DNA from: Atopobium sp. oral taxon 199 str. F0494
Lineage (GTDB): Bacteria; Actinomycetota; Coriobacteriia; Coriobacteriales; Atopobiaceae
Direction: 5' to 3'
Assembly (NCBI RefSeq): GCF_000411555.1
Contig: NZ_KE150487.1
Span: forward strand, 287,768 to 351,767
DNA: 64,000 nucleotides
The notes beneath the pieces are model-generated. The model searched no databases and was not told where the DNA came from. It was given only the letters and a program-made list of their open reading frames with translations. Shown piece by piece: positions 477 to 16,685 of the stretch (within the stretch, counting starts at the first letter, position 1; each line of letters begins with the position of its first letter). The position numbers were made by a program, and so were the translations under genes.

Positions 477-779
477 TTAAATGCATAAAATCCCCTCGGG
501 ATCATAAGAACTTTTAGCACCTACATGATCAACTCGGTTTTTCCATTGCTTGCCTAAATTATAGAACCGTAAACTATCCTTTTCTTTGTCGATAATTCTA
601 ACAAGCTCATGTTTCATACTTTCATATTGACTGGGGTCAACTAGACATTCAAATACAGAGTATTGAACTCTTTGCCCGTATTGCATACAAACTTTCGCGA
701 CTCGCCGCAAACGTCTTGCTCCATTAACATCTCCACTTGCAACATCATAGGTCACCAAAACATACACAATTACCTCCAA
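477..779 (-). CDS. cas2: CRISPR-associated endoribonuclease/integration factor Cas2
   Basis: 100 residues, normal for Cas2. The N-terminus has the ferredoxin-like first strand with the conserved Asp in VLVTYDV, followed by a basic helix (RRLRRVAKVC) and the QYSVFEC strand. Cas2 dimers bridge two Cas1 dimers in the spacer-integration complex. It is the last gene of the cas operon and its start overlaps the cas1 stop by 10 bases, which suggests translational coupling. Confidence 0.97.
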   Translation of the reverse strand: MEVIVYVLVTYDVASGDVNGARRLRRVAKVCMQYGQRVQYSVFECLVDPSQYESMKHELVRIIDKEKDSLRFYNLGKQWKNRVDHVGAKSSYDPEGILCI

Positions 780-1789
780 AAAAATGCAGGATAATCGCTA
801 AGATCTCCTCTTAGATACCGAGAAAATAACTGAGCTTGAACGAACGGAACAAGACCCAAAGGCATTTTTTCTTTTAAAAACGGATGAATAATCTGACTCT
901 GTTTCTTTTGCTGCCAGTAACCTATCGCTTTCTTGAGCGAAGCATCTTTGAAGAAGAACCCTTGGGATTGAGTGAGAAAATCTGTTTCAGAAAGCTGCTT
1001 CCGGTTGAACAATGAGAGGACAAATCGATCTACCATGGGAGCGCGTAGCTCTTCAATAAGATCAAGAGCGAGACTTGCTCTTCCAGGTCGGCAGGCATGC
1101 AAATACCCCATTTGTGGATCAAGGCCAACAGATTCACAAGCAGACAATAGCTCTCGGCTTAACATTGTATAAAAAAATGAAAGAACAGCATTGACGGGAT
1201 CTTTAGGTGGTCGCTTCTTCCGGCCTGAAAAAATTATATTTTCACAGCGCAAGGCCCCACCTAATGCTGAGTAGTAAAGATGAGCGGCATTGCCTTCAAC
1301 ACCTCTCAGCTCATCAAGATTATTGCAATAGAATATTTCTTTTTTACTATTTTCCAGTGCATCGACAATTCGGTCTACGCCAATATCTTTCATATCTGAA
1401 TAGTCGCGGGCATAGTGCTGAAGTACTAGTCTTGCGTTATGAATTTTCGCACTAACAAAACGCTTTGCAATCGAAAGGCATGCCGATGAATCCATTGAGA
1501 GCCTATATTGTTCTCTTCTGAGCAAGACATTGCCAGATGTTGGACCGTTCACATGAGCTTGGAACCTTCCTCTTTCATCTAGGATAGAAACAGAAATTCC
1601 ATGCATCGCACAGGCTCCAAGTACAGAGGTGCTGCAGCCGACATGTCCAAACAGAACAACTCCTTCAAGAAGATGAAAAGGTACACTCATTATTTTCTTC
1701 TGATCAACATATACAGCAAGAGCATCATCTTTTTTTCGAAGGTAGGCATCAGGGTTTGTTAGATAAAGCGTATTTAAAAGTCTTTTCAT
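770..1789 (-). CDS. cas1: CRISPR-associated integrase Cas1 (type I-C)
   Basis: 339 residues, usual for I-C Cas1. The metal-binding residues are visible: Glu165 in RGVEGNAA, His231 in GYLHACRPGR and Glu246 in DLIEELRAP. An N-terminal beta domain precedes the all-helical catalytic domain. Cas1 is the metal-dependent integrase that inserts spacers at the leader-repeat junction. It sits six bases downstream of cas4 and overlaps cas2, giving the compact cas4-cas1-cas2 adaptation module. Confidence 0.97.
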   Translation of the reverse strand: MKRLLNTLYLTNPDAYLRKKDDALAVYVDQKKIMSVPFHLLEGVVLFGHVGCSTSVLGACAMHGISVSILDERGRFQAHVNGPTSGNVLLRREQYRLSMDSSACLSIAKRFVSAKIHNARLVLQHYARDYSDMKDIGVDRIVDALENSKKEIFYCNNLDELRGVEGNAAHLYYSALGGALRCENIIFSGRKKRPPKDPVNAVLSFFYTMLSRELLSACESVGLDPQMGYLHACRPGRASLALDLIEELRAPMVDRFVLSLFNRKQLSETDFLTQSQGFFFKDASLKKAIGYWQQKKQSQIIHPFLKEKMPLGLVPFVQAQLFSRYLRGDLSDYPAFFWR

Positions 1790-1795
1790 CTCAGT

Positions 1796-2419
1796 TTACT
1801 GCCTCCTGTCAAATTGCATCCAATACTCTTCTATTGCAAAATTACTTATTTTAGGAAGACATTCATCAGCGAGTGAACAACGGCAACATTTTGGGCCTAT
1901 CTTAGCTTGAGGAGTTTTCTCTGCCTCAAAAAGATTGTGCATATGTTCTGCAAGTTCCTTTACCTCACTCCTAAGTTTTTCATTCACCTCTATATATTCT
2001 CTTCTTCGCGTCTCTCCATAAAAAAGAGAAGCCGTAGTAATAGTCTTTCCGTGCATCTCCTCAAGACATAAGACTTGTGCTGTTGCTTGAATCCTATCCC
2101 AATCCTCCACTTTCGGTTTTCCTACCTTATATTCAATAGGTCGAATATAAGAATCGGCGCCGCCAACACCGTATTCCACAATGTCAGCGACACCATATAG
2201 CCCAAGTGAATAACTTACAAGATGAACCCCACGTTCAGCTCTTACGCCATCAACACAAGAATATCCTGCCATATCCACACGCTCATGAAAGTAATTACCA
2301 CGTACCGTGTCGATACTATCTTTCCAAATCTTCTCTAAATGAATGAGAGCCCATTGACGTTCACAATATGCCAGATGCTGTAAGCCTGAGAGAGCCAGCA
2401 GCTCGTCCTCGGTGTACAT
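1796..2419 (-). CDS. cas4: CRISPR-associated exonuclease Cas4
   Basis: 207 residues. The iron-sulfur cysteines typical of Cas4 are present: Cys19 in AYCERQW, then a C-terminal cluster CCRCSLADEC (about 178-187). The RecB-type nuclease core is seen as GVADIVEY (Asp79) and PIEYKVGKPK (Glu96, Lys98). Cas4 trims prespacers and helps choose PAM-containing ones. It lies directly between the interference genes and cas1, as usual in type I-C. Confidence 0.95.
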   Translation of the reverse strand: MYTEDELLALSGLQHLAYCERQWALIHLEKIWKDSIDTVRGNYFHERVDMAGYSCVDGVRAERGVHLVSYSLGLYGVADIVEYGVGGADSYIRPIEYKVGKPKVEDWDRIQATAQVLCLEEMHGKTITTASLFYGETRRREYIEVNEKLRSEVKELAEHMHNLFEAEKTPQAKIGPKCCRCSLADECLPKISNFAIEEYWMQFDRRQ

Positions 2420-2425
2420 GACAGC

Positions 2426-3340
2426 CTATATGGAAGGCGCTATATAGTCGTAAATCTCCACCTCAATGCCGGGCATTTCCTCTTCAGAAACCTTAATCTC
2501 GTAGTCTTCAAATTTTCTTGGTTCTTGATTGGCAGGAATCTTCTTCTCAACCTGCACCATATCAAAAAGTGTATGGGCAGGAGCATTGCCAAGTTTGCTC
2601 TCATGCTTGAAGACTACAAGCTTACGCGATGTCATAAGGCCACGAGCAGCGCTGCGATCGCTCTCGAACATGTTCATGAAAGCCTCCCACAGAAGGTCGA
2701 GGTCAGCCTGGCAAAAACTAGATTTCTCGGCAAGGAAGGCAGAAACGAATCCCTCTATTCGATAAAGACCGTAGGGCACGTACTGCTTACGACCCATAGT
2801 CTTATTGTCCTTATCTTCCTTGGCTTCCGTTGCGGCCATTCGCGTGATGCTCATCTCAAGCGGCACGACTGGATCGATGGACTCGCCGAAACACAACTGC
2901 ACGGGACCACGCACCTGGCCGCAGTTAACACCCGTTGTCATAACCGCACCAAAGGTCCTGATGTCGAAGAAGTTGTTGCACATGAATCTGGTGACCTTCA
3001 GCTGCTCCTCGACCTTCTTGGGCAGCTTCTTTTTTTGCGGCGTCAAATTGTAATGCCTATACGCTCTAAGATTGCGCTCGTTGAGAACAGCACCCTCCTG
3101 CACGTAAATCTTGTAGCCCAACTCTCCCTCATTAGTGTCCGGATCGTCTATGGCCTCTCCCTTTATAAGATTGACGTAATTGCGAATCTTACGCTTGATG
3201 CATACATCGGAAATAATCCCACGCGAGGTATCAGGATCGATGCGCGGGAGATTTCCTGCATCGGGGTCACCATTGGGGTTGCCGTTTTTGACATCACAGA
3301 AGAAGACGAAATCGTAACGGTTCTTGATAGGTTCTGCCAT
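2426..3340 (-). CDS. cas7: Cascade backbone subunit Cas7 (Csd2 type)
   Basis: 304 residues, with the family start RYDFVFFCDVKNGNPNGDPDAGN and the FGAVMTTGVNCGQVRGPVQ segment characteristic of Csd2/Cas7. Several copies wrap the crRNA in the I-C interference complex. It lies 9 bases after cas8c and 6 bases before cas4. The segment TRMAATEAKEDKDNKTMGRK is typical of this subfamily. Nothing looks broken. Confidence 0.96.
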   Translation of the reverse strand: MAEPIKNRYDFVFFCDVKNGNPNGDPDAGNLPRIDPDTSRGIISDVCIKRKIRNYVNLIKGEAIDDPDTNEGELGYKIYVQEGAVLNERNLRAYRHYNLTPQKKKLPKKVEEQLKVTRFMCNNFFDIRTFGAVMTTGVNCGQVRGPVQLCFGESIDPVVPLEMSITRMAATEAKEDKDNKTMGRKQYVPYGLYRIEGFVSAFLAEKSSFCQADLDLLWEAFMNMFESDRSAARGLMTSRKLVVFKHESKLGNAPAHTLFDMVQVEKKIPANQEPRKFEDYEIKVSEEEMPGIEVEIYDYIAPSI

Positions 3341-3349
3341 GATATTCTC

Positions 3350-3709
3350 CTAATTCTCACTGAGTCTACTGTCTGCAGTTTCATTGGATTCACTACCATT
3401 TTGTTTGTGTGAAGTCCAGAGATCTACGCGCTCTTGGTAGTACCCGATAAAGAACTCACCCTGATCCTCCATGGAGAGCGTCCCTGGATAGGGATTATCT
3501 GAGAGCTTCTTTCCCACTATCTCGTCAAGTTCCTTTTCAAGGATAACATTCAATCCTGGCTTCTTCTTGCGCAAATCGCTTAGGTGGTTCTGGCAACCAT
3601 GCATGAGCGTCGGCATCACACGAGCCGGCGTAACTGATGCGGAACCTATATACTTATCCCGGATGGTTGCATTGGTGGTTCCCAACGCCTCCGACTGCGC
3701 TCTTTCCAT
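3350..3709 (-). CDS. cas11: Candidate Cas11c from an internal start in cas8c
   Basis: In characterised type I-C systems the small subunit Cas11 is translated from inside cas8c. Here an in-frame ATG at codon 490 of cas8c (MERAQSEALG) would give 119 residues, close to the known size, covering the helical C-terminus. A GTG lies immediately before it. No strong Shine-Dalgarno sequence is visible upstream, so this is inferred from family knowledge and length, not shown directly. Confidence 0.4.
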   Translation of the reverse strand: MERAQSEALGTTNATIRDKYIGSASVTPARVMPTLMHGCQNHLSDLRKKKPGLNVILEKELDEIVGKKLSDNPYPGTLSMEDQGEFFIGYYQERVDLWTSHKQNGSESNETADSRLSEN

Positions 3710-5176
3710 CACGGCAAACAATCTACCAAGAAGGTACCCTACGTTGTTGTTGTCTCTATTTAAAGCCACGTCAATCTCGCTTTCTCTTATTGATGGAATT
3801 CCCGAAACACGCCGCGTGCGGACAAGGCAAGCTTTGATGAGCGATGCACGCTGACCTATGTCCCAACTGTTGTTTGACCCATGGTCTGCCCGCATGCGCG
3901 AGAGCAAAGTGCTGAGCAACGAACGGGGAAACCTGCCGCCAGTGAGCATCGCCTGCACACAAGGGTTCACAAGTGTGGAGGGGATATTCTCGTACTTTCT
4001 CTGAACGGCACATTGTCTGATGAGTTGAAACAGCGAAGTCTCCCGCACGCCTACCATCTCAATATCCCGCAGGTATTGGCCATAGTGCTCAGCCACTTCT
4101 CCAAGTGTGGCAGTCTCAAAGAACCGAACAGAAAGTCGCGCAGCGTTGGGAGATATGCCCAATACGTAGTAACGCACGTCAGGATTAAAGCTCATACTAA
4201 AAGGACGTCCGTTTTTGATACCTTCAATTGCATTACGGACACGATCAACAATTGCCGAGTCCTCAGCGACCTTATTTCCGTCGTTCCCACCAAGGAAATG
4301 CGTGAGCAGGCTGTCCTCGTCAGGCGATGGCCTGTCGCTCCAGAACGTAAAGGTAGTATCGCCCAAGTGAACCTTGCGTTCTGGGTCAGAGAGCAGCATC
4401 TTGAGGGCTGTACCCGCTCCAAAGGCAACCCGCTCTGAAACCGAGGCATTGTAGGCTTGGGTCTTGCCGTAGGAATTGAACGAATCACAGTTGAACGAAA
4501 TGAGAGAGGCGCCGGAAGACTGCGCACCAGCAAAGCCTGTCACTGGCAAAAAGACACGGGCTAACATAGCTTTCTCACTCGTGACAGAGCACTGACCGGA
4601 GGTGCTGCTTTCGGGGTTTTCTGTACGATAACGATTCCAAGCATCAATCACAGACGGACGTTCATGAGCAAAAAATCCTTCTCCTGCAAAGTTCTCGACA
4701 TAAAAAACAAGAAGGTTGCTTTTATTGTTTGCCTGTTTGAAAGACAGGATATCTTCTAATCGCCCTACATCCCACTGTCCCATCGGAAGACTTTGTGAGA
4801 AGAACTTGCGCACTGCGTCTGCAACGAAATCATCGCAGTGTTTGAGCACATTCTCGTGTAGCTCGCGCGATTTATTGCGCTTCTCGGTGCTACCTAGTCC
4901 AAACAGATACTCTGCCGTATCACAAAGAAAATAGGGTCTGACATTTGAGCTCCGTCGTTCGTTTAATGGTCGTGGAACGAGCATAACTGTATGCTCGTTG
5001 TCATTCTTGCTCCCTCCTTGTGACAAAGAGAGGATATTCTTCAGCTCACCATTTTCCGAAAGGACAATCTCCCAGAACACTTTCTCAGCGCTCATGCCTT
5101 CGGGTGGTGTTTGTCCGGATTTTTTTGGGTCGGCAGCATAGCGCTCGTAGAGGTCGTAAAGGTCCCTGATAATCAT
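3350..5176 (-). CDS. cas8c: Cascade large subunit Cas8c (Csd1)
   Basis: 608 residues, usual for Csd1/Cas8c. The N-terminal half begins MIIRDLYDLYERYA and contains the ASVSERVAFGAGTALKMLL block; a long region then leads to the helical C-terminus ending in the Cas11-like part. Cas8c recognises the PAM and contacts Cas3 in the I-C effector. The start overlaps the cas5 stop by four bases (ATGA). Assignment rests on family resemblance and on its place between cas5 and cas7. Confidence 0.94.
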   Translation of the reverse strand: MIIRDLYDLYERYAADPKKSGQTPPEGMSAEKVFWEIVLSENGELKNILSLSQGGSKNDNEHTVMLVPRPLNERRSSNVRPYFLCDTAEYLFGLGSTEKRNKSRELHENVLKHCDDFVADAVRKFFSQSLPMGQWDVGRLEDILSFKQANNKSNLLVFYVENFAGEGFFAHERPSVIDAWNRYRTENPESSTSGQCSVTSEKAMLARVFLPVTGFAGAQSSGASLISFNCDSFNSYGKTQAYNASVSERVAFGAGTALKMLLSDPERKVHLGDTTFTFWSDRPSPDEDSLLTHFLGGNDGNKVAEDSAIVDRVRNAIEGIKNGRPFSMSFNPDVRYYVLGISPNAARLSVRFFETATLGEVAEHYGQYLRDIEMVGVRETSLFQLIRQCAVQRKYENIPSTLVNPCVQAMLTGGRFPRSLLSTLLSRMRADHGSNNSWDIGQRASLIKACLVRTRRVSGIPSIRESEIDVALNRDNNNVGYLLGRLFAVMERAQSEALGTTNATIRDKYIGSASVTPARVMPTLMHGCQNHLSDLRKKKPGLNVILEKELDEIVGKKLSDNPYPGTLSMEDQGEFFIGYYQERVDLWTSHKQNGSESNETADSRLSEN

Positions 5177-5856
5177 CCAATCACCTCTCGCGCAGCTGTG
5201 GAGACGTCGATGACGCCGCCTCTCATGACGGCACGGAAGAACTTAGGCTCAGGGTGCTCCATATCCGCAAAGTCCAAATCGTAGAGCATAAAACCAAGGT
5301 CCTTCTCAGAAACTCCTGCATATGCGGAGAGAGGAACGTTCTCCCCCTCCTCAACTAATGAAACTTCTGCGGAGAACTCCCTGCACCCAAGATAAGGCTG
5401 ATTGAAGCACTGACCCTTGCGCAGGCGCCGCAGGACAATGTTGTAGTGCTTCTCAACCGTATCGTCCTCACCCACGCGGTTAGTCAAATCGAAGTGGGCA
5501 TTGACGACATATGCAACGTCCCGTAACAGCAAAGTTGCGCGCTGCTGGCGGTCTGTCGATACGGTTTCATAGAGGGGCAGGTTTTTACCTCCCTCGATTG
5601 ACTTAGCGCCCGCCGATCCACTGTAGGGAAGTTTACTTCCCACCTCGTTGCGGCGAAACGTCTCGAAGCGAATCTTGTTGAGCACCTCAATGCTATCAAT
5701 GTGCCATGTGATTGCTGGTTTCCAATACACGGCCTCTAGGATTCCACGTGCCGCCGATGGCGTCATCACGTCATAGCTAACGCGCTCCGCCTTCATCTCG
5801 GGACGCGTGAAGCATGCGCGTGGTCCTTTTACCAGCATCTTTATGCCATATCCCAT
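5173..5856 (-). CDS. cas5c: Cas5c, pre-crRNA processing endoribonuclease
   Basis: 227 residues. In type I-C, which lacks Cas6, Cas5 cuts the repeat and caps the 5' handle of the crRNA. The N-terminus GIKMLVKGPRACFTRPEMK and the following YDVMTPSAARGILEAVYW are family hallmarks. The GRxPyLGxReF-like segment is present as NQPYLGCREFSAEV. The gene lies about 50 bases after cas3 and overlaps cas8c by 4 bases. Confidence 0.96.
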   Translation of the reverse strand: MGYGIKMLVKGPRACFTRPEMKAERVSYDVMTPSAARGILEAVYWKPAITWHIDSIEVLNKIRFETFRRNEVGSKLPYSGSAGAKSIEGGKNLPLYETVSTDRQQRATLLLRDVAYVVNAHFDLTNRVGEDDTVEKHYNIVLRRLRKGQCFNQPYLGCREFSAEVSLVEEGENVPLSAYAGVSEKDLGFMLYDLDFADMEHPEPKFFRAVMRGGVIDVSTAAREVIG

Positions 5857-5910
5857 GTATCTCCTCCTTTCCTTGAATAGCTTTGTCCCAATCGTAATGC
5901 ACGAGGTGCG

Positions 5911-8382
5911 TCATAGTACCATCACATTGAGTACCTCCTCATCCGGTGGGAGAAGACCCGTCTCTTCGCTGTAGACTGTACGGCAGTCGTCCTCCATGCG
6001 CAGCACGTTTACAAGACCCAGGTGTTCGATGAGTCCCTCTTGCTCTAACTCGCGCATGAGCTGAGGGTATACGCTTACGCTATAAGGCTGCAGCTGTCGT
6101 ATAAGGGACGCCTCTTCACGAAAGGCCTCATGAGAGTGCAGGCGACTAAACAACTTCATACCCTTTTCATTCCAAGGGACGAAGACGGATTCACCTGAGT
6201 CTTCTATGACCCTATAGGTACGAGCGTACATCTCAAAGTCGTAGCAATAGTCCATGTAGCGCGATAGGAGACCCTTACTGAACGAAAGATGTTTCTGGTC
6301 AGACATGTCCTCGTAGAGTCCCGAGGAACCGTACTTCCTATGGCCCTTTCCGTCGTCTCCCACTATACATTTAGCATCAAGGCCTTCGGTCTGATAGCAA
6401 CGCCTAAAGTAGAGGTCGACCGTATTCGCGTCAATGCCTAAGCCATCTACATTGAGCAGCTCAGATGCAATCGAGCGTGTCTTTCCCAGGAAAGAGCGCG
6501 TTCCTGACCGTACGAAAGCCTCATCCCTCTCGGCGAACTCGAAGATAAAAACATCTCCCGGAACCTTCTCGCCTACCTCATCGGTGCGTCCTCCATTGCG
6601 GTTACAGCGTCCCGCCGCCTGCACGATAGAATCCAGTCCAGCCATCTCGCGCCAGACGATAGGGAAATCGACATCCACACCCGCTTCTATAAGCTGGGTT
6701 GATATGACTACGCATCGTTTCCCTGCATCAAGCCGATTTCGTATCTTTGCAATCATCTGTGATCTGTGCACTGGAATCATGTGTGCGCTCAGATGAAAGA
6801 AACCTTCTTCATAAGGCTCTCTATTGTCCTCGATCAAAGCGCTCTCGCGCGCTCGGGCCACCACGTCGCGATAGAGAGTAAGCGCCTCAGCTTTCTTGCC
6901 AACAACACATAGTGCTTGATGCAATTGTATGAGTTTATCCACCAAGTCCTTTTCTAGAATCTCGCCCACTATCTGGTAGTGGACTCGTCCATCAAACGCC
7001 TTTGAGAATAGTTCCTCGTGTGCGCGACACAGTTCATGGGGGCAAGAGCCGAACGGCCACTCGTTTTGCACGGCTGGCTGCGTCGCTGTACAGAGCACGA
7101 TGCTCGCACCGAAGTCGAGTGCCAATTCCTCGAGTGCCGCAAGCGTCGGGTGTATGAGCTCGATTGGTATGGTCTGTGCCTCGTCAAGTACGATAACGCT
7201 ATTCGCAATGTTGTGCAGCTTGCGGCATTTTCCTGGCTTGTTTGAGAACAACGACTCCAGCAGCTGAACATTCGTAGTAACCACGATGGGCGCATCCCAA
7301 TTCTGTACGGCAAGCCGCTCGTATTCGCGTCCTTCCTTCGCCGCTTCCTCAAAGTCGTAATTCGAGTGATGCTCAAGAACGTTATCAGCACCAAAAATAT
7401 CCCTAAAAATAGTGGCGCTCTGCTCGACGATGGACGTAAAGGGGATGGCATAGATGACACGCTCGAGATCGTTCTCCGCCGCATGACGCAAGGCGAACTC
7501 CATAGACGAAAGCGTCTTACCACCGCCGGTCGGCACCGTGAGGGTGAAAAGGCCAGGCTTGGATACCGCTCCCTCTCTGCAATCGGCAAGAACGGCAGCA
7601 CGTGCTTCGTTGACCGGCGTGTTCCCAGCCTTACCCGCCAGCCTCTCGAGATGATTTTCGAGTCTATCGAGCAACATGGGAATGGAGTCGTAGTCATGCC
7701 CCCTCTTCTCCGCCACCTCAGGGCTCATAAAGCTCTCCGTGTCAATCCAATCGGCATCGACAAGACACGAGAACAGCATGCGCGTCAGAGCCTGCCCCGA
7801 AAAGGATAGATGTTGCTGGAAGATTTGTCGCACCGCATTATCTTGCAGGGCTTCAGGGGATGATCTCATGATGCGGGAAAGCATCGTTGGTTCAAGGTCA
7901 ACTCGATCCGGGGGGACAACATCAGGAAACTCATCTATCATGACATAGTACGGACTGTAGTCATCAATGGCTTTTCCTGGGGAAGGTGGGGTGCCAAGGC
8001 GCTCTATCCTATTCTCCATATCGATAGAGGTCTTCATACCGCCATGATGTCCTAGGATTGCATAAGCCAAAAGTTCGCCCACATAGGCCCCACTACCACA
8101 TGCGTCATCTTTATCACCTCGGCCGCCATAGAGCTCAAGCGCACGTTTCGCACCAAACGCCGCATGATCTACGCTTACAGGCCTGTTGTGCAGGCGCTCA
8201 TTCTGGAACCTGTCGCATGACTTACCCGCGTCATGCAAGAGGCCGAGTGCACGACCCCATTGCTCGTAGCCAAACGTGGATGCAAATTCGGCGCTCAGTT
8301 CCGACACGTTTACCAGATGCTCAGACAGAGGCTGCCATTCAGCTTCATCCTCGTCTTTTGAATGTGCCCACAGAATACTCAT
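5911..8382 (-). CDS. cas3: CRISPR-associated nuclease-helicase Cas3
   Basis: About 823 residues: an N-terminal HD nuclease fused to an SF2 helicase. The HD domain shows LLHDAGK, a second His-Asp pair in SVDHAAF, and ILGHHGG. The helicase shows Walker A VPTGGGKT, a DEAQ box in VLDEAQTIP (many Cas3 proteins have DEAH), STQLIEAGVDVDF and motif VI QAAGRCNRNG. Cas3 unwinds and degrades targets marked by Cascade. I chose the ATG at 8382 because GAGGGG lies just upstream; an ATG four codons earlier at 8394 is the alternative. It is the first gene of the operon, and the 119-bp gap to its right should hold the cas promoter. Confidence 0.96.
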   Translation of the reverse strand: MSILWAHSKDEDEAEWQPLSEHLVNVSELSAEFASTFGYEQWGRALGLLHDAGKSCDRFQNERLHNRPVSVDHAAFGAKRALELYGGRGDKDDACGSGAYVGELLAYAILGHHGGMKTSIDMENRIERLGTPPSPGKAIDDYSPYYVMIDEFPDVVPPDRVDLEPTMLSRIMRSSPEALQDNAVRQIFQQHLSFSGQALTRMLFSCLVDADWIDTESFMSPEVAEKRGHDYDSIPMLLDRLENHLERLAGKAGNTPVNEARAAVLADCREGAVSKPGLFTLTVPTGGGKTLSSMEFALRHAAENDLERVIYAIPFTSIVEQSATIFRDIFGADNVLEHHSNYDFEEAAKEGREYERLAVQNWDAPIVVTTNVQLLESLFSNKPGKCRKLHNIANSVIVLDEAQTIPIELIHPTLAALEELALDFGASIVLCTATQPAVQNEWPFGSCPHELCRAHEELFSKAFDGRVHYQIVGEILEKDLVDKLIQLHQALCVVGKKAEALTLYRDVVARARESALIEDNREPYEEGFFHLSAHMIPVHRSQMIAKIRNRLDAGKRCVVISTQLIEAGVDVDFPIVWREMAGLDSIVQAAGRCNRNGGRTDEVGEKVPGDVFIFEFAERDEAFVRSGTRSFLGKTRSIASELLNVDGLGIDANTVDLYFRRCYQTEGLDAKCIVGDDGKGHRKYGSSGLYEDMSDQKHLSFSKGLLSRYMDYCYDFEMYARTYRVIEDSGESVFVPWNEKGMKLFSRLHSHEAFREEASLIRQLQPYSVSVYPQLMRELEQEGLIEHLGLVNVLRMEDDCRTVYSEETGLLPPDEEVLNVMVL

Positions 8383-8513
8383 AGTGCCCCTCATTTTGTT
8401 AGTTATACGGCCGCACTTTATTAAACTCTCTCCTATAAGAATCTTGTTCTATTTATACGTCATCATCTTCTCTTTGTTCTTGAATCCTTTGTAATATCCT
8501 GCAAGCGGTATAA

Positions 8514-9043: not shown

Positions 9044-9943
9044 CTAAGTATCTGCGATAGCCTCACGGACGTGCCCGCGAGCAGCCTGAAGCCGAGAGCG
9101 TGCCTCATCAGCGTTCACCTGCGCTAGCAGCATAACCACCGCGCATTTAACGTCCTCGTCCGCGAGACGCAAGGTCTTGTCGGCGTCCTGCAAAGAGCAG
9201 CCCGTAGCTTCGCACACAATATTGCGCGCGCGGCTTACCAGTTTTTCGTTCGTCTGCTGCACGTCAACCATGAGGTTTTGGTACACCTTGCCGATGCCCA
9301 CCATAGCGCCTGTTGAAATCATGTTGAGAATTAACTTCTCCGCGGTGCCCGCCTTCAGACGCGTTGAGCCCGTCAGCACCTCTGGACCCGGCTCGGCCTC
9401 TATGGCAAGCTGAGCCACAGCTCCCGCCTCAGAACCCTTATTCGCGGTAACGGCAATCGTCTTACACCCGAGGGCGTTCGCGTAAGCAAGGCCGCCGATG
9501 ACATAGGGAGTGCGGCCAGAAGCAGCCAGGCCAACAGCTAAATCTTTCTCGCAAAGGCCAATATCCTTAAGTTCCTCGACGCATAGCGTCTGACTGTCTT
9601 CCGCGCCTTCAATCGCTCTCACAAAGGCCTTCTCGCCACCAGCAATAAGACCGACAACCACACCGGGATCAACCCCGAAAGTTGGCGGGCACTCTACCGC
9701 GTCAAGCACGCCCAGGCGCCCTGAGGTCCCCGCGCCAAAGTAGATGACGCGCCCGCCCGCCTCAAGCGCTTCTTTCGCCCATGTAATCGCTTGCGCTACC
9801 TGCAGAAGCACTTCTCCAACAGCGTCGGCGACCTTATGATCTTCTTCATTCATCACCCGAGCAATCTCAAGCGGCGTCATTTGATCAAGCTGCATCGTAT
9901 GGGCGTTTCGGCTCTCGGTTTTGAATTTGTCCAACTTGATCAT
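9044..9943 (-). CDS. murQ: N-acetylmuramic acid 6-phosphate etherase
   Basis: About 299 residues. MurQ cleaves the lactyl ether of MurNAc-6-phosphate to give GlcNAc-6-phosphate and D-lactate in the cytoplasm. The SIS domain is clear: YFGAGTSGRLGVLDAVECPPTFG, then a second sugar-phosphate segment, and ISTGAMVGIGKVY. The start is the ATG at 9943, with GTGGAG six bases upstream; it overlaps the mupG stop as ATGA. It is the last gene of the MurNAc operon. Confidence 0.96.
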   Translation of the reverse strand: MIKLDKFKTESRNAHTMQLDQMTPLEIARVMNEEDHKVADAVGEVLLQVAQAITWAKEALEAGGRVIYFGAGTSGRLGVLDAVECPPTFGVDPGVVVGLIAGGEKAFVRAIEGAEDSQTLCVEELKDIGLCEKDLAVGLAASGRTPYVIGGLAYANALGCKTIAVTANKGSEAGAVAQLAIEAEPGPEVLTGSTRLKAGTAEKLILNMISTGAMVGIGKVYQNLMVDVQQTNEKLVSRARNIVCEATGCSLQDADKTLRLADEDVKCAVVMLLAQVNADEARSRLQAARGHVREAIADT

Positions 9944-11103
9944 GCAAAACTCCACTTCTCAAGCGTAAAGCCTCTGCCGGTATGAATGTACGACAGCAGC
10001 GGAATGTCCGACGCGGTGACACGCCCCACTACGGCGTCTCGCGGGTCAAGCGGGAGCTCTTTTTTCGTGATGGAGACTTCCCCGACGTAGCGACCGTACT
10101 CCGCGGCGCTTACCAGTATCGTTCCTACGGGAAGCAAGGCTCCCTTCTCGGCGGTGAACGGCGCCGTGGTGGCAACCGGCGATGACGCGGCAGCCACTGG
10201 CGGCGTAGCAACACACGGCGCGGCAACGGGCCCCTCCGTAGCGGCAGGCGTTGCCTCAACAACAGACGCGTCAGTCCACAGGCGCGACTCCTGCGAGCGG
10301 ATAAGGTAGTCGGATGAGTCCACTCTATCGTGCTGCACCCGGCCGTACAGATAGTCGTATGTATCGTCCAGCTCTACCCGCAAAGGAACATGTCCCTCAC
10401 TAAACGCTCGCAGCCACTTCCAAACACCCTCAGAGGCGCTAATGTCGCCGATAAAAACAACGTCAGTTTGGGCGTCATAGAGCTCAAGGGCATCGCGAGC
10501 GAGAAGAACTCCGGTATGGTCGCGATGCTCCTCAACAGTAGGAAGGCCTTCAAAAAGCGGACAGCGCTTCTCAGCGTCTCCCGGTATGAACGCAAGAGTT
10601 TGGAAACCCAAGCTCTTGAGGCGAGCATTACTGCGCGCAACACGTTCTATGGAAAGGCCAGTATATCGTTTGGGATAGTAATTGTGGCAGGCCGCGAAAC
10701 GAGAAAAATCAGCCCCCGCTTCCTGCCAGACGCGGATGACGTCCTCCGTGATAGTTGACGCGTTGAAGACTACATGAAACACCCTAGAGAGCTCGATGAT
10801 CCGTTGAGCGTCAAAGCCATAATCAAGACGCACATAATCAATTCCGAAGTCAGCGAGTTCTTCAAGACGAGAAACACCCAGTTTCTCCAAGGTATGAGGA
10901 GATACGTCGGCGATTAGGTGGACGCCCTTCTCGCCACAAAACCTGATGAGGTCACGGGCATCTCTTTGATACTCTGCGCTTGTTTCTTCAGGAATGTGCA
11001 GCGAAGTAAAGGTGTAGCGAGCACCGGCCTCATATGCTTTTTTCAGCATGCACGCATTCTTTTCAAATCCGCTGCCAACATAGAGAGACACTCCCGTAAA
11101 CAT
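9940..11103 (-). CDS. mupG: MupG/DUF871 family 6-phospho-N-acetylmuramidase
   Basis: About 387 residues. The N-terminal TIM barrel starts FTGVSLYVGSGFEKN and contains YTFTSLHIPEE, LIADVSPHTLEKLG and ACHNYYPKRYTGLS, typical of DUF871. Members such as staphylococcal MupG cleave MurNAc-6P-GlcNAc imported by the PTS. The C-terminal cyclophilin-like domain (from about residue 320) is separated from the barrel by an Ala/Pro/Val-rich low-complexity linker of about 45 residues that family members usually lack. Start chosen at ATG 11103 with GTGAGG upstream. The genes around it (murP, murR, murQ) support the role. Confidence 0.85.
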   Translation of the reverse strand: MFTGVSLYVGSGFEKNACMLKKAYEAGARYTFTSLHIPEETSAEYQRDARDLIRFCGEKGVHLIADVSPHTLEKLGVSRLEELADFGIDYVRLDYGFDAQRIIELSRVFHVVFNASTITEDVIRVWQEAGADFSRFAACHNYYPKRYTGLSIERVARSNARLKSLGFQTLAFIPGDAEKRCPLFEGLPTVEEHRDHTGVLLARDALELYDAQTDVVFIGDISASEGVWKWLRAFSEGHVPLRVELDDTYDYLYGRVQHDRVDSSDYLIRSQESRLWTDASVVEATPAATEGPVAAPCVATPPVAAASSPVATTAPFTAEKGALLPVGTILVSAAEYGRYVGEVSITKKELPLDPRDAVVGRVTASDIPLLSYIHTGRGFTLEKWSFA

Positions 11104-11231
11104 ACGCCTCACATCCTTTCTGCAACATGCCTCAATCCCCCGCCTGCAACGACGGGAGATTGAAGTCAGAATCAAGCCAAACGAGAATCAAATCGAATTA
11201 AAGCCAAGGTGCAGACAGGGCCAAACGGCCG

Positions 11232-12737
11232 TTACTCACCAAAGACATCGTTAATACGGTCTTCGTCAACGCCAAAGAAATACGTCAGGACAAAGCCGGC
11301 GACATAGGCCGCAAGCATAGCGATAACGTAGAAGCCCTGCGTGCCAGGCTGCACGATGAGCAGGCCAAAGAGACCGGATACGCCCTGCGAAACTGTACCA
11401 AGATGGAAGAGCCACGCGAGGATAGAGCCGACACCAGCGCCAAGGCAGGCCGTGATAAAGGGCCTGCCTAAAGGAAGTGTTACCGCATACATCAAAGGTT
11501 CACCGATACCAAGCACGCCAACAGGTATGGATTCAGTCAAGAACCGCTTAACGTGAGTGTTCTTCGTCTTAACAAGAATGGCGAGACCCGCGCCAACTTG
11601 TCCGCCGCCAGCCATCATAAGGATAGGCAGCAAATAGTTCACTCCCTGCGTAGGACCAGACGGATCATTGAGCATGACGTGGATTGGCGTCAACGCCTGA
11701 TGCAAGCCAACGGAAACGAGCGGCAGGAAGGTTGAGCCCAACAGGTAGGCTCCGAAGACGCCGAGCTTATCGTAGAAGAACTGAAGGATAAAAAAGATCG
11801 CTTGCGTAAGGAATGCGCCGAGGGGCTGCAGCACCAAAACAGCCACGATAGAGCCGACAATGACTGTGCAGAGCGGTGTTAAGAAGGTATCCAGAACGCT
11901 CGGCATAATCTTGCGGAAGTTCTTCTCAAGCCAAGCAAAGAATATAGCACAGATAAGCGCGCCGAGAAGACCTCCTGCGGCGGCATTGAAGACATTCGAA
12001 GTCGTCACCGAGAACACGCCTTCAGCGAACTTCACTGACGGAAGGGCAAATGGCAAGTGAACTAGGTCCACGCCTTCCGTATTTTTGGCTAGAAGCGGCA
12101 TACCCGCATTGGCAATGGAGAGCGCCGCCGCCATGGCACCGAGTACGGCCGACCCGCCAAACTCCTTCGCGGCATTCATTCCTACAAGAATCGGAAGGTA
12201 GGCAAAGAGCGCCCAACCCATCGTGCGAATGGTCTGGTACCACCAGGCTGTAGCAAACGCGTTGTGCGTGCCAACATTGATGACGTTACAGAGGCCGTTG
12301 ATAAGGCCGGCCGCAATAATGCCCGGCAGAAGTGGCACAAAGATATTGGCAATCCTTTTCAGGAAGCGCTGCACGGGCTTATCGTACTTGGCCTTCTGAG
12401 TTGATTTGTTGCTCTTGGCAACCTCAGCCGCACTCTCGCCCGATGGCTCTTTGCTCAAGGCGCTCTGGTCTAGAACATCCCCAGCTTTGATGCCGGTCAA
12501 TGCGGAAAATTCAGCAATGACTTTGTTGACCACGCCGGGACCGAGTACAACCTCAAGCCTGTCGCCTTCTTCCACGAGACCCATGACACCGTCAAGCGCC
12601 TTGAGGCTATTCGCGTCGACTTTTGAGGGATCGGCAACCTTGATGCGCAGCCGTGTCATGCACACCATGTTACCCAGGACGTTTTCCTTGCCACCAACGG
12701 CGGTAAGGATAGCCCCTGCAAACGTACTGTAATCCAT
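11232..12737 (-). CDS. murP: PTS EIIBC, MurNAc-type transporter
   Basis: About 501 residues. The N-terminal EIIB domain has the phosphorylatable Cys in MVCMTRLRIKV; a linker rich in Ser/Lys follows, then an EIIC domain with about ten membrane segments and the GIGEPLMYAVTLP signature. No EIIA domain is present, as for MurP, which borrows EIIA from another system. The start is ATG 12737 after AAGGGAAG. Substrate is assigned from the murR, mupG and murQ neighbours; the EIIBC sequence alone would only say glucose-superfamily (sucrose, trehalose or MurNAc). Confidence 0.85.
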   Translation of the reverse strand: MDYSTFAGAILTAVGGKENVLGNMVCMTRLRIKVADPSKVDANSLKALDGVMGLVEEGDRLEVVLGPGVVNKVIAEFSALTGIKAGDVLDQSALSKEPSGESAAEVAKSNKSTQKAKYDKPVQRFLKRIANIFVPLLPGIIAAGLINGLCNVINVGTHNAFATAWWYQTIRTMGWALFAYLPILVGMNAAKEFGGSAVLGAMAAALSIANAGMPLLAKNTEGVDLVHLPFALPSVKFAEGVFSVTTSNVFNAAAGGLLGALICAIFFAWLEKNFRKIMPSVLDTFLTPLCTVIVGSIVAVLVLQPLGAFLTQAIFFILQFFYDKLGVFGAYLLGSTFLPLVSVGLHQALTPIHVMLNDPSGPTQGVNYLLPILMMAGGGQVGAGLAILVKTKNTHVKRFLTESIPVGVLGIGEPLMYAVTLPLGRPFITACLGAGVGSILAWLFHLGTVSQGVSGLFGLLIVQPGTQGFYVIAMLAAYVAGFVLTYFFGVDEDRINDVFGE

Positions 12738-12798
12738 ATGCTTCCCTTCTCTCGTGATTGCCACCGAGGTTTTCCTATACGACAATGAACGACTCTCT

Positions 12799-13785
12799 CT
12801 ATGTACCTTCTAACGTTGCGGCGTCTTCGCCGGCCGCGGCGTTTGCGCTCGTTGTGGCGTTTGCGCCGATTGCGGCATCCGCATCAGCTGCGACGGTATC
12901 GGATTCTGGAGCGGAAGCTGCTGAAGCCTTATTGGAAGGCGCCGTTGACTTCTCGATATAGTTTGACGAGAAGCGCCTGACGCTCTTCTCGTAATTACGA
13001 TTCACATAGGCGACAAAAAGGGTATCGATAACGTTGAGCTGGGCGATTCTTGACGACATGGCGCCACTTCTCAGCACATGCTCCGTTTCTGCAACCCCAA
13101 GAACAAAATCAGCGCGGCGCGCAAGTTCCGAATCCACACCGCTTCTGGTAATCGCTACCAGTTTGGCTCCATTCGCCTTTACAATCCAGGCGCACTCAAG
13201 CATTTCGCGCGTGAGTCCCGAGTAGCTGATTACGAGGGCAAGATCTTCTCGCCCCGTGTTCTTCGCATAGAGCAGCTGCGAGTGCAAGTCATCGCAAAGA
13301 TTGCAAGCGATATTCAGGCGCATGAGTTTAAGCTGCAAGTCATGAGCCACGAGAAGCGACGCACCTACGCCAAAGAGGCAGATAGAGCGCGCCTCCATCA
13401 TAAGCGACACCACTTCATCAATCGTATCCGCGTCCAAAAGCTGCTTGGTCAGCTCAAGCGACGCGATATTTCTGGATGTTACCTTTTCGATAACGTTCTC
13501 GGTTGAGTCGCCTGCGATAACACCGCTCACAGCAATATCATTACTCTTGTCGCTTACCGCGAGCTCGTACACTAAGGCCTGCTGAAATTCTCTGTATCCG
13601 GCGCATCCGAGTTTTTTGCAGAGACGGACTACCGTTGACGCGGAGGTATATGTCTGATCCGCAAGTTCATGAATCGACTTACCAGCCGCTTCTCGGGAAT
13701 TGGAAAGGATGTAGTCAATGATGTCACACTCCGCCGAGCTGGCATGTTGACGGTACTCTTCCAGATGTAAGCGCACTCCCCGCAT
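12799..13785 (-). CDS. murR: MurR/RpiR-family transcriptional regulator
   Basis: About 328 residues: an N-terminal HTH_6 domain (TYTSASTVVRLCKKLGCAGY is the recognition helix region) followed by a SIS sugar-phosphate domain (ICLFGVGASLLVAHDLQLKL, and LVISYSGLTREM). It probably senses MurNAc-6P or a related phosphosugar and controls the downstream mur genes. The C-terminus carries an unusual Ala/Asp-rich tail of about 45 residues. Start ATG 13785, after AAGGAGG. It is the first gene of the operon. Confidence 0.9.
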   Translation of the reverse strand: MRGVRLHLEEYRQHASSAECDIIDYILSNSREAAGKSIHELADQTYTSASTVVRLCKKLGCAGYREFQQALVYELAVSDKSNDIAVSGVIAGDSTENVIEKVTSRNIASLELTKQLLDADTIDEVVSLMMEARSICLFGVGASLLVAHDLQLKLMRLNIACNLCDDLHSQLLYAKNTGREDLALVISYSGLTREMLECAWIVKANGAKLVAITRSGVDSELARRADFVLGVAETEHVLRSGAMSSRIAQLNVIDTLFVAYVNRNYEKSVRRFSSNYIEKSTAPSNKASAASAPESDTVAADADAAIGANATTSANAAAGEDAATLEGT

Positions 13786-14118
13786 ACGGCCTCCTTTTAC
13801 TAGCATCTTACTAGCTCACTGTAATTTTGAGCCTTGTATGACTAATTTGTTTCACCATCTGACTAAAAAGCATGACGTATTTTTCGCTCATGCCTCTTTC
13901 CAGACCGTTCGCGGACGATTTATCGCTGCTAGTTTGTCATTTCAACAGGCTTTATCAGGGTGCGCACGCTTTTCGCCACCCACCGCCTGTCTGATAAAAT
14001 TGTTTCAAATAACGTGTAATGAGGCGTCTATAGTGACGTATGTATGCTGGCGTATATATCAGATTCCCCAGAATAACTGAAGCGGTGCTTTCATTTAATC
14101 TTTTGATTCGGCTCAAAG
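13786..14118. other. Intergenic region upstream of murR
   Basis: No convincing gene here. It presumably holds the murR operon promoter near its left end, where AT-rich sequence lies directly upstream of murR. The rest is unassigned. Confidence 0.4.
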
Positions 14119-14151
14119 AAAACCCCACTCCCAATGCTGCGAGCGGGGTTT
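14119..14151 (-). terminator. Hairpin terminator after the STAS-like gene
   Basis: Arms AACCCCACTC and GAGCGGGGTT (one G-U or mismatch position) enclose a 10-nt loop, flanked by A and T runs. It lies 20 bp past the last gene of the glmM-to-STAS block, read on the minus strand, and could work in both directions. Confidence 0.6.
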
Positions 14152-14172
14152 CATCTGCTCTTTTAATTAACG

Positions 14173-14484
14173 CTAACTCCTGCCGAGCGGAGCGACCTTC
14201 TCAAGACTTCTTGCGTCAATTGCACTTCTGACAATCGTCGCCCAAAAAGTAGAAATATGAGTAAAGGTAGTCCTTCTCCTTAGCTCATTAAATCCAAGCT
14301 CATAAGCTAATCTGCCAAAAACTTCATCAGCAAAAGAACTCGTTATAGTATTCACGCCCTCAAAATCGAACGTGACTACATCTTGAGAGCTACTATCAAA
14401 AGCTTGAGAAATCTGACTGAAGGCGCTTCTTCCTGCCGAGCGCGTTACTAAAGAGGTGCCAAAAGTATTCATATGTATAACCAT
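14173..14484 (-). CDS. STAS-like DUF4325 domain protein
   Basis: About 103 residues. The core VTFDFEGVNTITSSFADEVFG matches the DUF4325 STAS-like fold, where the SFADE helix is the most conserved part. Such proteins are often found next to GHKL ATPases, resembling anti-sigma/anti-sigma-antagonist logic. Start ATG 14484 after GGGGAGAG; 71 bases separate it from the ATPase gene. No DNA-binding domain is visible. The partner or target is unknown. Confidence 0.75.
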   Translation of the reverse strand: MVIHMNTFGTSLVTRSAGRSAFSQISQAFDSSSQDVVTFDFEGVNTITSSFADEVFGRLAYELGFNELRRRTTFTHISTFWATIVRSAIDARSLEKVAPLGRS

Positions 14485-14555
14485 AAAACTCTCCCCTCTG
14501 TAACGAACATTATCATATAGCAAAATTAGATGTACACACAAAAATATCTAATTCG

Positions 14556-15527
14556 TTACCAAAGAGGTCCTTCTTGTGACTTTTCTGAATATATTGCGTC
14601 TTTCGAATTATATCTAAATGAGCCTTTTGCTTCATCAGGGAGAAGATCATTCGTTTGAATGTCGATAGTTCTATCTACGGGTATTCTAAATGAGATTATG
14701 GTGCCTGGAAAATAAAGGTTAGGTACTTTTTGTATGCCCCGCTGCCTATCGATTTTTATAGAAGATTCATTTGCTATAGCTAAAAGATTCCCGTTAGCAG
14801 CTCTTACAAAATTTGAGAGAACTGAAAGTCCTACTCCTCCACTTACCTTCTCACTTCCGTAATCTTCTTTTCCTATCCACTGGCCTGTTTTTCGTTCAAA
14901 TGCTTTAGCCATCCTATCTTCGGAGGATAGCTTTGCATATATCTGATTCTCCTTCATGCTTGAATCAATGCCTATGCCACCATCAGCAACGCAAACTTCC
15001 AAAAATCCCAAATTGGGAAAGTATTGTGCGCCCAATAAACCGCCTATCTTTGATTGCGCATGCATTTCTACATTATCCAAAATCTCACCAATTGAATAAT
15101 CGATGGCACTTTTGACGCTATCTTGTACTTCAAGCTTTGAAACGATAATATCCATCAACCTATTGACTAAAGAATTGATATCAAAATCATCTTGAATTAC
15201 TAATAAGGGAAGAAATCTGTTCTTTTCAGCATGACGATTAAAATCTTCGATCTGTTGTAATCCCACATACTTAAAGAAATCCATTCGGGATATATACTGT
15301 CGAACATTTTCCTTTATACCATTACTGTCAATGCAATCCTTAAGATTAAATCGCTTTACAAAAATCGCTAAAGCCACAATCTGGCTAATTGAAATAAAGT
15401 CGCATTTTGTCCAATCAAACTGAAAATCAATTTCTTCACCCAGGTAAAAATTTGGCTTGGCACACAATGTTACCAGCGAAGACTCATCGCATTGCAATGA
15501 TGAGGCGCTCACGCGTATACGTTTCAT
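14556..15527 (-). CDS. GHKL (histidine-kinase-like) ATPase
   Basis: 323 residues. The C-terminal half has a GHKL ATP-binding fold: N-box EILDNVEMHA (Glu148, Asn152, His156), G1 box VADGGIGI (Asp182) and G2 box SGGVGLSVLSNFV. No phospho-acceptor His region, membrane segment or receiver domain is seen. The first 100 residues contain a STAS-like strand-helix segment (FDWTKCDFISISQIVALAIF). The start overlaps the tsaE stop as ATGA, so it is coupled to a housekeeping gene. With the DUF4325 gene it forms a two-gene module of unknown function. Confidence 0.8.
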   Translation of the reverse strand: MKRIRVSASSLQCDESSLVTLCAKPNFYLGEEIDFQFDWTKCDFISISQIVALAIFVKRFNLKDCIDSNGIKENVRQYISRMDFFKYVGLQQIEDFNRHAEKNRFLPLLVIQDDFDINSLVNRLMDIIVSKLEVQDSVKSAIDYSIGEILDNVEMHAQSKIGGLLGAQYFPNLGFLEVCVADGGIGIDSSMKENQIYAKLSSEDRMAKAFERKTGQWIGKEDYGSEKVSGGVGLSVLSNFVRAANGNLLAIANESSIKIDRQRGIQKVPNLYFPGTIISFRIPVDRTIDIQTNDLLPDEAKGSFRYNSKDAIYSEKSQEGPLW

Positions 15528-16087
15528 TGTTTGGTGTCCTCATATAAAAACGATTCAACCAACTGCTGACCGCGGGAATCATGCACAACAAAGCGGATCT
15601 CTCGCTGAGGCTCACTGTTGCCATCAACGTCGCCACCAGCGCTACCATCACTGACGCTGCTATCGACAGCGCCTCCCTCAAGACGGGAAATGAACACGTC
15701 AACACGTTCATCACCAATATCGTCGGCAAACTGCTCACCCCACTCAATAACGGTGGGACCGTCAGATCCAATGGCATCAAAAAGGCCGGTATCTTCAAGC
15801 TGGCTGGAATCATTCAGGCGATACAAATCAAAATGGTAGAGCGGCATCGCGCCGCCCTCATACACCATCTCAATAGTAAAGGTAGGGCTCGTCACATCAG
15901 CGGCAATACCCATACCCTGCGCGATACCCTTCGTGAACTGCGTCTTTCCTGCTCCAAGATCTCCTGTCAGCACCAGCACATCGCCAGCTGCAAGGAGTTT
16001 TCCGCACTTCTCGCCAAGAGCAATGGTCTCGGCCGCGGAAGAAGAAACAAAGACGCCGGGGCTAACCATACGAGGAAGCTTACTCAT
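15524..16087 (-). CDS. tsaE: tRNA t6A synthesis ATPase TsaE
   Basis: About 187 residues. Walker A is GDLGAGKTQF; TSPTFTI, YHFDLYRL and VIEWGEQF are family motifs. TsaE works with TsaB and TsaD to place the threonylcarbamoyl group on A37 of ANN-decoding tRNAs. A Gly/Asp/Ser-rich insert (SSVSDGSAGGDVDGN) lies near the C-terminus. The start is ATG 16087, overlapping the udg stop by 8 bases. tsaB, which often follows tsaE, is not here; the GHKL ATPase takes that position. Confidence 0.95.
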   Translation of the reverse strand: MSKLPRMVSPGVFVSSSAAETIALGEKCGKLLAAGDVLVLTGDLGAGKTQFTKGIAQGMGIAADVTSPTFTIEMVYEGGAMPLYHFDLYRLNDSSQLEDTGLFDAIGSDGPTVIEWGEQFADDIGDERVDVFISRLEGGAVDSSVSDGSAGGDVDGNSEPQREIRFVVHDSRGQQLVESFLYEDTKQ

Positions 16088-16685
16088 GCACGACCTCCCC
16101 TTGCGGGTGTTCGCGGAGCCATCCGCCCAGAAGACGCAGGTCATCGGCAAGCAGCGTTCCCCAGTCCGGATGGTAGATAGTAGCCGCGGGGTGGAACGTT
16201 GGTAATACAACGAAATGACCCGTCTGGTACAGGCGGCCTCGCAGCGACGTCACGCCCTTCTCGGTACGCAAAATAAATTGCGACGCAAAATTACCCAGGC
16301 ATACAATCGCGTCCGGCCAGATAGCACGAACCTGATTGCGCAGGTACGGAGCGCACGCCTCAATCTCTTCAGGACGAGGGTTTCTATTTGAGGGTGGCCG
16401 GCACTTGACCACGTTGGTGATGAAAATATCGTCGCGAGAAAGGCCCGCCGCTGCAAGGTAGCCGTCAAGTTTCTTGCCCGCCGCGCCGATAAACGGTCTT
16501 CCGCCAAGATCTTCGTTTCTGCCGGGTCCCTCGCCGATAAACATCACGCGCGCATGAGGATTTCCGTCCCCAAACACGATGGTATTGCGACCCTCGCATA
16601 GCTGACAAAGGCGACAATCTCTCATCTGGGCTCGGATTTCTTCGAGCGTAATGGACGGAATGTGTTGAGATGAATTCTCGGGCAT
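16080..16685 (-). CDS. udg: Uracil-DNA glycosylase, family 4/5 (Fe-S type)
   Basis: About 201 residues. The Fe-S cysteines appear as CRLCQLC and, further on, VVKCRPP and a Cys in ACAPYL. The catalytic-pocket motif GEGPGRNED and the C-terminal TFHPAA motif fit family 4 UDG. It removes uracil from DNA. The start is uncertain: ATG 16685 was chosen, but a TTG four codons upstream is also open; neither has a clear Shine-Dalgarno sequence. It overlaps tsaE. Confidence 0.92.
   Translation of the reverse strand: MPENSSQHIPSITLEEIRAQMRDCRLCQLCEGRNTIVFGDGNPHARVMFIGEGPGRNEDLGGRPFIGAAGKKLDGYLAAAGLSRDDIFITNVVKCRPPSNRNPRPEEIEACAPYLRNQVRAIWPDAIVCLGNFASQFILRTEKGVTSLRGRLYQTGHFVVLPTFHPAATIYHPDWGTLLADDLRLLGGWLREHPQGEVVHE

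Follow-up and report, generated by a model that had tools for sequence, protein, structure and literature searches.

The window analysed here, a stretch of 64,000 nucleotides from Atopobium sp. oral taxon 199 str. F0494, carries two genes downstream of tsaE, one for a GHKL protein predicted to be a serine kinase and one for a short DUF4325 protein. These genes and the features around them are as follows.

Positions 1 to 286, strand not assigned: edge of the CRISPR array of the type I-C system; the array continues beyond the window
Positions 477 to 8394, minus strand: type I-C cas operon (cas3, cas5d, csd1, cas7, cas4, cas1, cas2), identified with Pfam, within the same exchangeable island
Positions 9044 to 13806, minus strand: operon for MurNAc-6-phosphate use (murQ, mupG-like, PTS, MurR/RpiR), names from sequence reading
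Positions 14120 to 14151, minus strand: intrinsic-terminator-like 14-bp inverted repeat, just 3' of the DUF4325 stop
Positions 14173 to 14484, minus strand: DUF4325/VapS-like STAS protein, 103 aa
Positions 14485 to 14559, minus strand: spacer between kinase and DUF4325 genes, 71 bp between the genes; possible operator or RNA stem
Positions 14556 to 15527, minus strand: predicted STAS-GHKL serine kinase, CapK/VapK-like without HTH, 323 aa
Positions 15524 to 16090, minus strand: tsaE (Pfam TsaE, 3.5e-36)

Both reading frames of the pair are intact. The ATG of the kinase gene and the TGA of tsaE overlap as ATGA, and the GAGGA Shine-Dalgarno sequence of the kinase gene is located inside the last tsaE codons. 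The likeliest start of the DUF4325 gene is at 14484, with GGGGAGAG ahead of the ATG, which gives a protein of 103 aa. The two genes of the pair are 71 bp apart and thus not coupled to each other; of the coupling of the pair to tsaE described in the initial annotation, the overlap of the kinase gene with tsaE has stood. We read in this overlap the co-transcription of the pair with tsaE from a housekeeping promoter and see no more in it. The terminator-like repeat at 14120-14151 follows the DUF4325 stop, which argues that the transcription unit contains no third gene. The spacer holds two nested perfect 8-bp inverted repeats (14500-14507/14552-14559 and 14524-14531/14546-14553), and such a nested pair was obtained in 0 of 5000 shuffles; no counterpart was found in relatives, and Rfam returned no match in 13700-16200.

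Predicted kinase and its STAS partner

A GHKL gene with intact N, G1 and G2 boxes, starting on the tsaE stop and followed by a DUF4325 STAS-like gene, had been proposed in the initial annotation, and the open reading frames and sequence bear it out. The N box comprises E148, N152 and H156, G1 reads DGGIGI and G2 GVGL; furthermore, a comparison of 27 relatives showed no variation at E148, N152, D182, G184, G186, G231 and G233, and hardly any at H156. In SpoIIAB, the Glu of the N box has a catalytic role. Pfam placed the GHKL protein in HATPase_c at sub-threshold level only and identified its partner as DUF4325 (PF14213, E 6e-13). As had been noted before, neither a histidine acceptor nor a receiver or membrane part could be recognised in the GHKL protein.

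The AF2 model of the window kinase (pLDDT 85, pTM 0.88) was compared by VIA, where the five best matches were SpoIIAB (Z 11.9-11.0), followed by RsbW (9.4) and histidine kinases (about 8). A feature beyond the initial annotation is the N-terminal STAS-like domain of this protein, an assignment that rests on the family profile, which hits SpoIIAA with its N-terminus, and on the fold of a fused relative, a STAS domain not being among the matches listed for the window kinase's own model. In that relative (L056; AF2 model with pLDDT 92, pTM 0.90), an N-terminal STAS domain (RsfB Z 10.8, SpoIIAA 9.4) is followed by a GHKL domain matching SpoIIAB at Z 14.7.

Two related systems were characterised in 2026, and the remark in the initial annotation that no mechanism is established is out of date. 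VapKSC is composed of the STAS-GHKL kinase VapK, the STAS antitoxin-substrate VapS and the PIN RNase VapC, and is linked to ssDNA (Chambers et al. 2026, PMC13373217). CapK-CapS consists of an HTH-STAS-GHKL kinase and a STAS-wHTH repressor of immune operons; in both systems, as tested, the kinase is activated by ssDNA and phosphorylation of the acceptor breaks a complex (PMC13373217).

Residue F44 of the window kinase aligns with W53 of VapK from Deinococcus gobiensis. An aromatic residue is kept at this position in nearly all split kinases and is absent from the fused relatives. Judged from these alignments, F44 is a putative ssDNA-contacting aromatic, probably equivalent to VapK F54 and CapK W68, the equation with Escherichia VapK F54 being made only via the Deinococcus VapK. 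At the opposite end, residues 315-323 form a C-terminal tail that is disordered in the AF2 model and ends in LW, as do the chains of 13 of the 21 kinases that are neither fused nor CapKS-like, the window kinase included. The LW tail could be a docking tail that substitutes for the covalent linker of the fused form. It should be added that the LW endings of split kinases follow a flexible, often acidic tail, and that D. gobiensis VapK ends in LF.

For the DUF4325 protein, Escherichia VapS (9z7o) was the only credible match in the PDB (E 1.6e-4; profile E 7e-4). In the printed alignment S48 of VapS, its phospho-acceptor (PMC13373217), falls on S49 of the window protein. By sequence, S49 and the neighbouring S50 are candidate phospho-acceptors, both at the SpoIIAA/VapS acceptor position. 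In close DUF4325 relatives S50, F51, D53 and E54 are invariant, and several have Asn at position 49; given that several Coriobacteriia relatives have this Asn at the canonical acceptor position (TNSF), it may be the following Ser that accepts the phosphate, or these relatives may not share the phosphorylation. Among 38 aligned fused proteins, SSFADEVFG is invariant, and the existence of relatives joined in one chain with this motif argues that the two proteins work together.

The anti-sigma-like, NTP-driven switch of a partner suggested in the initial annotation fits these data, with SpoIIAB and RsbW as nearest folds and a DUF4325 partner resembling VapS. The same folds would be expected of a partner switch that controls a sigma factor in the manner of SpoIIAB/SpoIIAA/sigma-F, and at one Brevibacillus locus (L052) the next gene encodes a sigma-70 region 4 protein. 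However, no sigma factor was found near the window pair or near other pairs, L052 aside, and the nearest characterised substrate by sequence is VapS and not SpoIIAA; control of a sigma factor is, in our estimation, quite improbable.

Insertion at the 3' end of tsaE

The G+C contents of the pair are 37.2% and 42.6%, against about 52% (52.7% in tsaE). Same-species genome G025 matches the window at 95.7% DNA identity from 15555 onward and synteny breaks at this position; the last nine tsaE codons read SFLYEDTKQ here versus ELGR in the same-species copy. Base composition and the breakpoint inside the last tsaE codons show an insertion, in agreement with the 'merely inserted' option of the initial annotation. 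The pair is absent from all four congeners, the same-species genome included; a survey of 140 genomes of the family yielded 9 with the pair, counting the present one.

Downstream of tsaE, G025 has a type I-E cas operon with an array, congener G024 has type II cas1, cas2 and csn2, and G023 and G026 have unrelated genes. The second flank of the exchanged segment is at C2:280042, the point at which 97.5% identity to G025 stops, and the approximately 23 kb between the flanks hold a csn2 remnant (C2:280995-281377), a CRISPR array, the type I-C cas operon, the MurNAc operon and the pair. Sequence reading gave the names of the csn2 remnant and of the cas types in G025 and G024; for the type I-C genes, Pfam provided confirmation. 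CRISPR-Cas types are exchanged in this genus at the segment that follows tsaE (15555 to C2:280042; L016, L017, L127), and the pair was acquired recently and horizontally at the edge of the CRISPR-Cas island. This connection with a type I-C locus, like the STAS-like domain of the kinase, had not been part of the initial annotation. The pair is separated from the cas genes by the MurNAc operon, which is absent beside tsaE in congeners; past the terminator and this operon, cas3 begins about 5.8 kb from the pair. In the literature searched, neither a tsaE-adjacent CRISPR hotspot nor Atopobium type I-C was found; the genomes compared here indicate that CRISPR-Cas systems are exchanged at the 3' end of tsaE within the genus.

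These observations also bear on a possible functional tie of the pair to t6A synthesis or to tsaE, which would account for its position after tsaE. The ATGA overlap and the Shine-Dalgarno sequence in the last tsaE codons would suit such a tie, as would fused betaproteobacterial relatives situated between glyQ and glyS, another tRNA-related operon. Against it stand the absence of the pair from all four congeners, the breakpoint in the last tsaE codons with alien G+C, and the CRISPR-Cas genes at the same site in other strains. Moreover, the neighbourhood survey named beforehand in the initial annotation as the test of a link to tsaE found the pair unlinked to it, with tsaE near none of 82 loci related via DUF4325 (relatives were gathered with DUF4325, the GHKL alignment having no stretch sufficiently conserved for a genome scan). 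The pair had also been thought to replace tsaB, but nothing was replaced, as tsaB is present in this genome within a frame of 828 aa at C2:239432, some 64 kb from the pair; in no congener does tsaB directly follow tsaE, where CRISPR-Cas or unrelated genes are found instead. An involvement in t6A is very unlikely, and with it a false lead is removed.

Layouts and neighbourhoods of related pairs

Split pairs like that of the window occur in Coriobacteriia, Clostridia, Bacilli and phages, and the window kinase belongs to a supported clade (100/99) of eight Coriobacteriia/phage pairs. Some split pairs adjoin serine/tyrosine recombinases, integrases, or endolysin, lysis or terminase genes, and others, in few loci, adjoin AbiLi/AbiLii, type I HsdR, or an MTase with a TIR protein; many of the closely related pairs belong to prophages or have Abi, restriction or TIR genes as neighbours. 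In Pseudomonadota and others, most of the remaining relatives found are fused STAS-GHKL-DUF4325 chains about 410 aa long. In several betaproteobacteria (L053, L054, L057-L061, L065) the fused gene adjoins glyQ and/or glyS, with 4-bp overlaps where the ends are readable. A CapKS-like chromosomal pair (GHKL and a 200-aa STAS-wHTH protein) was seen in many genomes of one actinobacterial family (f15; L132-L158). A vapKSC operon with PIN is present on plasmid P5 of D. gobiensis and aligns with both window proteins. Viral sequences scanned with VapS gave no hit.

The fused proteins match positions about 100-395 of the PADLOC DrmA model. DISARM was rejected for the window proteins, which match only the N-terminal part of this 1750-position model. 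As a separate observation, positions about 35-395 of the DrmA model PDLC02567 match STAS-GHKL-DUF4325 proteins; some sequences behind it probably carry the module fused to a helicase, and the model may yield false DrmA calls.

No PIN gene was found beside the split pairs examined. One reading of this is that the window pair is a decayed vapKSC or a prophage remnant, which has lost its toxin or target and is functionless. Consistent with decay, there are neither PIN nor phage genes beside the window pair, and in G040 and G062 (L025 and L026) an intact DUF4325 gene follows a kinase gene that appears truncated or broken. The one PIN gene of the genome was considered as a VapC acting in trans and rejected: it is carried by a contig other than that of the pair, and a PIN gene of equal length is also found in the same-species genome, which has no pair. 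Many loci, however, have the two genes without VapC, with intact boxes and a conserved SFADEVFG; both window frames are intact, and in several of the genomes or phage records that carry a pair nothing matches PIN. We consider decay unlikely.

No recurrent partner gene was found beside the split pairs, except for a CI-like repressor in four prophage-like loci, where it is positioned as follows.

L044, 5722 to 6390; L048, 5221 to 5889; L049, 5210 to 5938; L122, 3892 to 4587; relatives of these repressors, L159 to L188

In three of the four the repressor directly precedes the kinase, and in three of the four the opposite side of the pair is occupied by an integrase or recombinase. The S24 domains of these four repressors have Cys for Ser and Met/Leu for Lys. 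Such neighbourhoods would agree with a lysogeny-control module of Coriobacteriia phages, carried into the island, in which the kinase replaces RecA-driven repressor cleavage. Yet nearly all of 30 fetched repressor relatives have the dead dyad, most of them without the pair, and no repressor is found beside the window pair. A dyad that is dead with or without the pair indicates that the two features are not specifically linked, and the substitution of the pair for repressor autocleavage was rejected on this control. As an origin of the window pair, lysogeny control has little probability. It should be added that the CI-like repressor family of Coriobacteriia has Cys for the catalytic Ser and Met/Leu/Ile/Val for Lys in S24, with the Ala-Gly cleavage site mostly kept.

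Proposed switch and comparison with known systems

The reading we prefer, and regard as probable, is that the pair is a horizontally acquired, toxin-less kinase-substrate switch of the CapK/VapK type. By analogy with the characterised systems, it should be a stress-activated kinase with its substrate. The N-terminal STAS domain of the kinase, and its groove to the GHKL domain, would probably sense ssDNA arising from damage or phage replication; the active kinase, of SpoIIAB/CapK fold, would then phosphorylate the DUF4325/VapS-like protein at S49 or S50, and the phosphorylated protein would let go of, or bind, a partner not encoded next door. With no toxin, DNA-binding domain or adjacent immune operon at the locus, the STAS protein must have its partner encoded at another locus. 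We infer kinase activity, ssDNA as signal, an unlinked target and a role in phage defence or stress.

More tentatively, such pairs might form a third output class of CapK/VapK, in which a mobile switch of two proteins senses ssDNA without having a toxin or a repressor, and the STAS protein, docked via the LW tail of the kinase, controls an unlinked target. In prophages this could be the non-cleavable CI-like repressor or the adjacent integrase, and in the island the CRISPR-Cas locus; we hold this extension possible but doubtful. The preferred reading extends the newly described CapK/VapK logic, from ssDNA via kinase to STAS protein, to a widespread form without any known effector, and what these effectorless pairs control becomes a concrete question.

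VapKSC and the window pair have in common a STAS-GHKL kinase that has no HTH and precedes the gene of a short STAS protein, and an acceptor position in the latter (S49 on VapS S48, with Asn there in several close relatives); F44, aligned with D. gobiensis VapK W53, is a putative ssDNA-contact aromatic. Unlike VapKSC, there is no VapC/PIN gene in the window operon or near any closely related pair, the window DUF4325 protein has a shorter C-terminus, and most split kinases of the window group end in an acidic tail with LW. CapK-CapS is likewise a defence-associated STAS-GHKL kinase with a STAS substrate; the window kinase, by contrast, has no HTH and carries a STAS-like domain at the start of its 323 aa, its 103-aa partner, like those in closely related pairs, has no wHTH and the STAS domain reaches the end, and a terminator and the MurNAc operon, instead of an immune operon, lie directly downstream. 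SpoIIAB-SpoIIAA and RsbW-RsbV share the GHKL serine-kinase fold (Z 11.9), the catalytic Glu and Asn of the N box (E148/N152 in the window kinase) and a STAS substrate with Ser at the same place, whereas the window kinase bears a STAS domain of its own, has no sigma factor in its context and is only remotely similar in sequence. Finally, the fused STAS-GHKL-DUF4325 proteins differ from the window pair in being single chains, chromosomally located (e.g. between glyQ and glyS) and without the aromatic equivalent to F44, but they are built of the same three domains, and it is in this fused form that SSFADEVFG is invariant.
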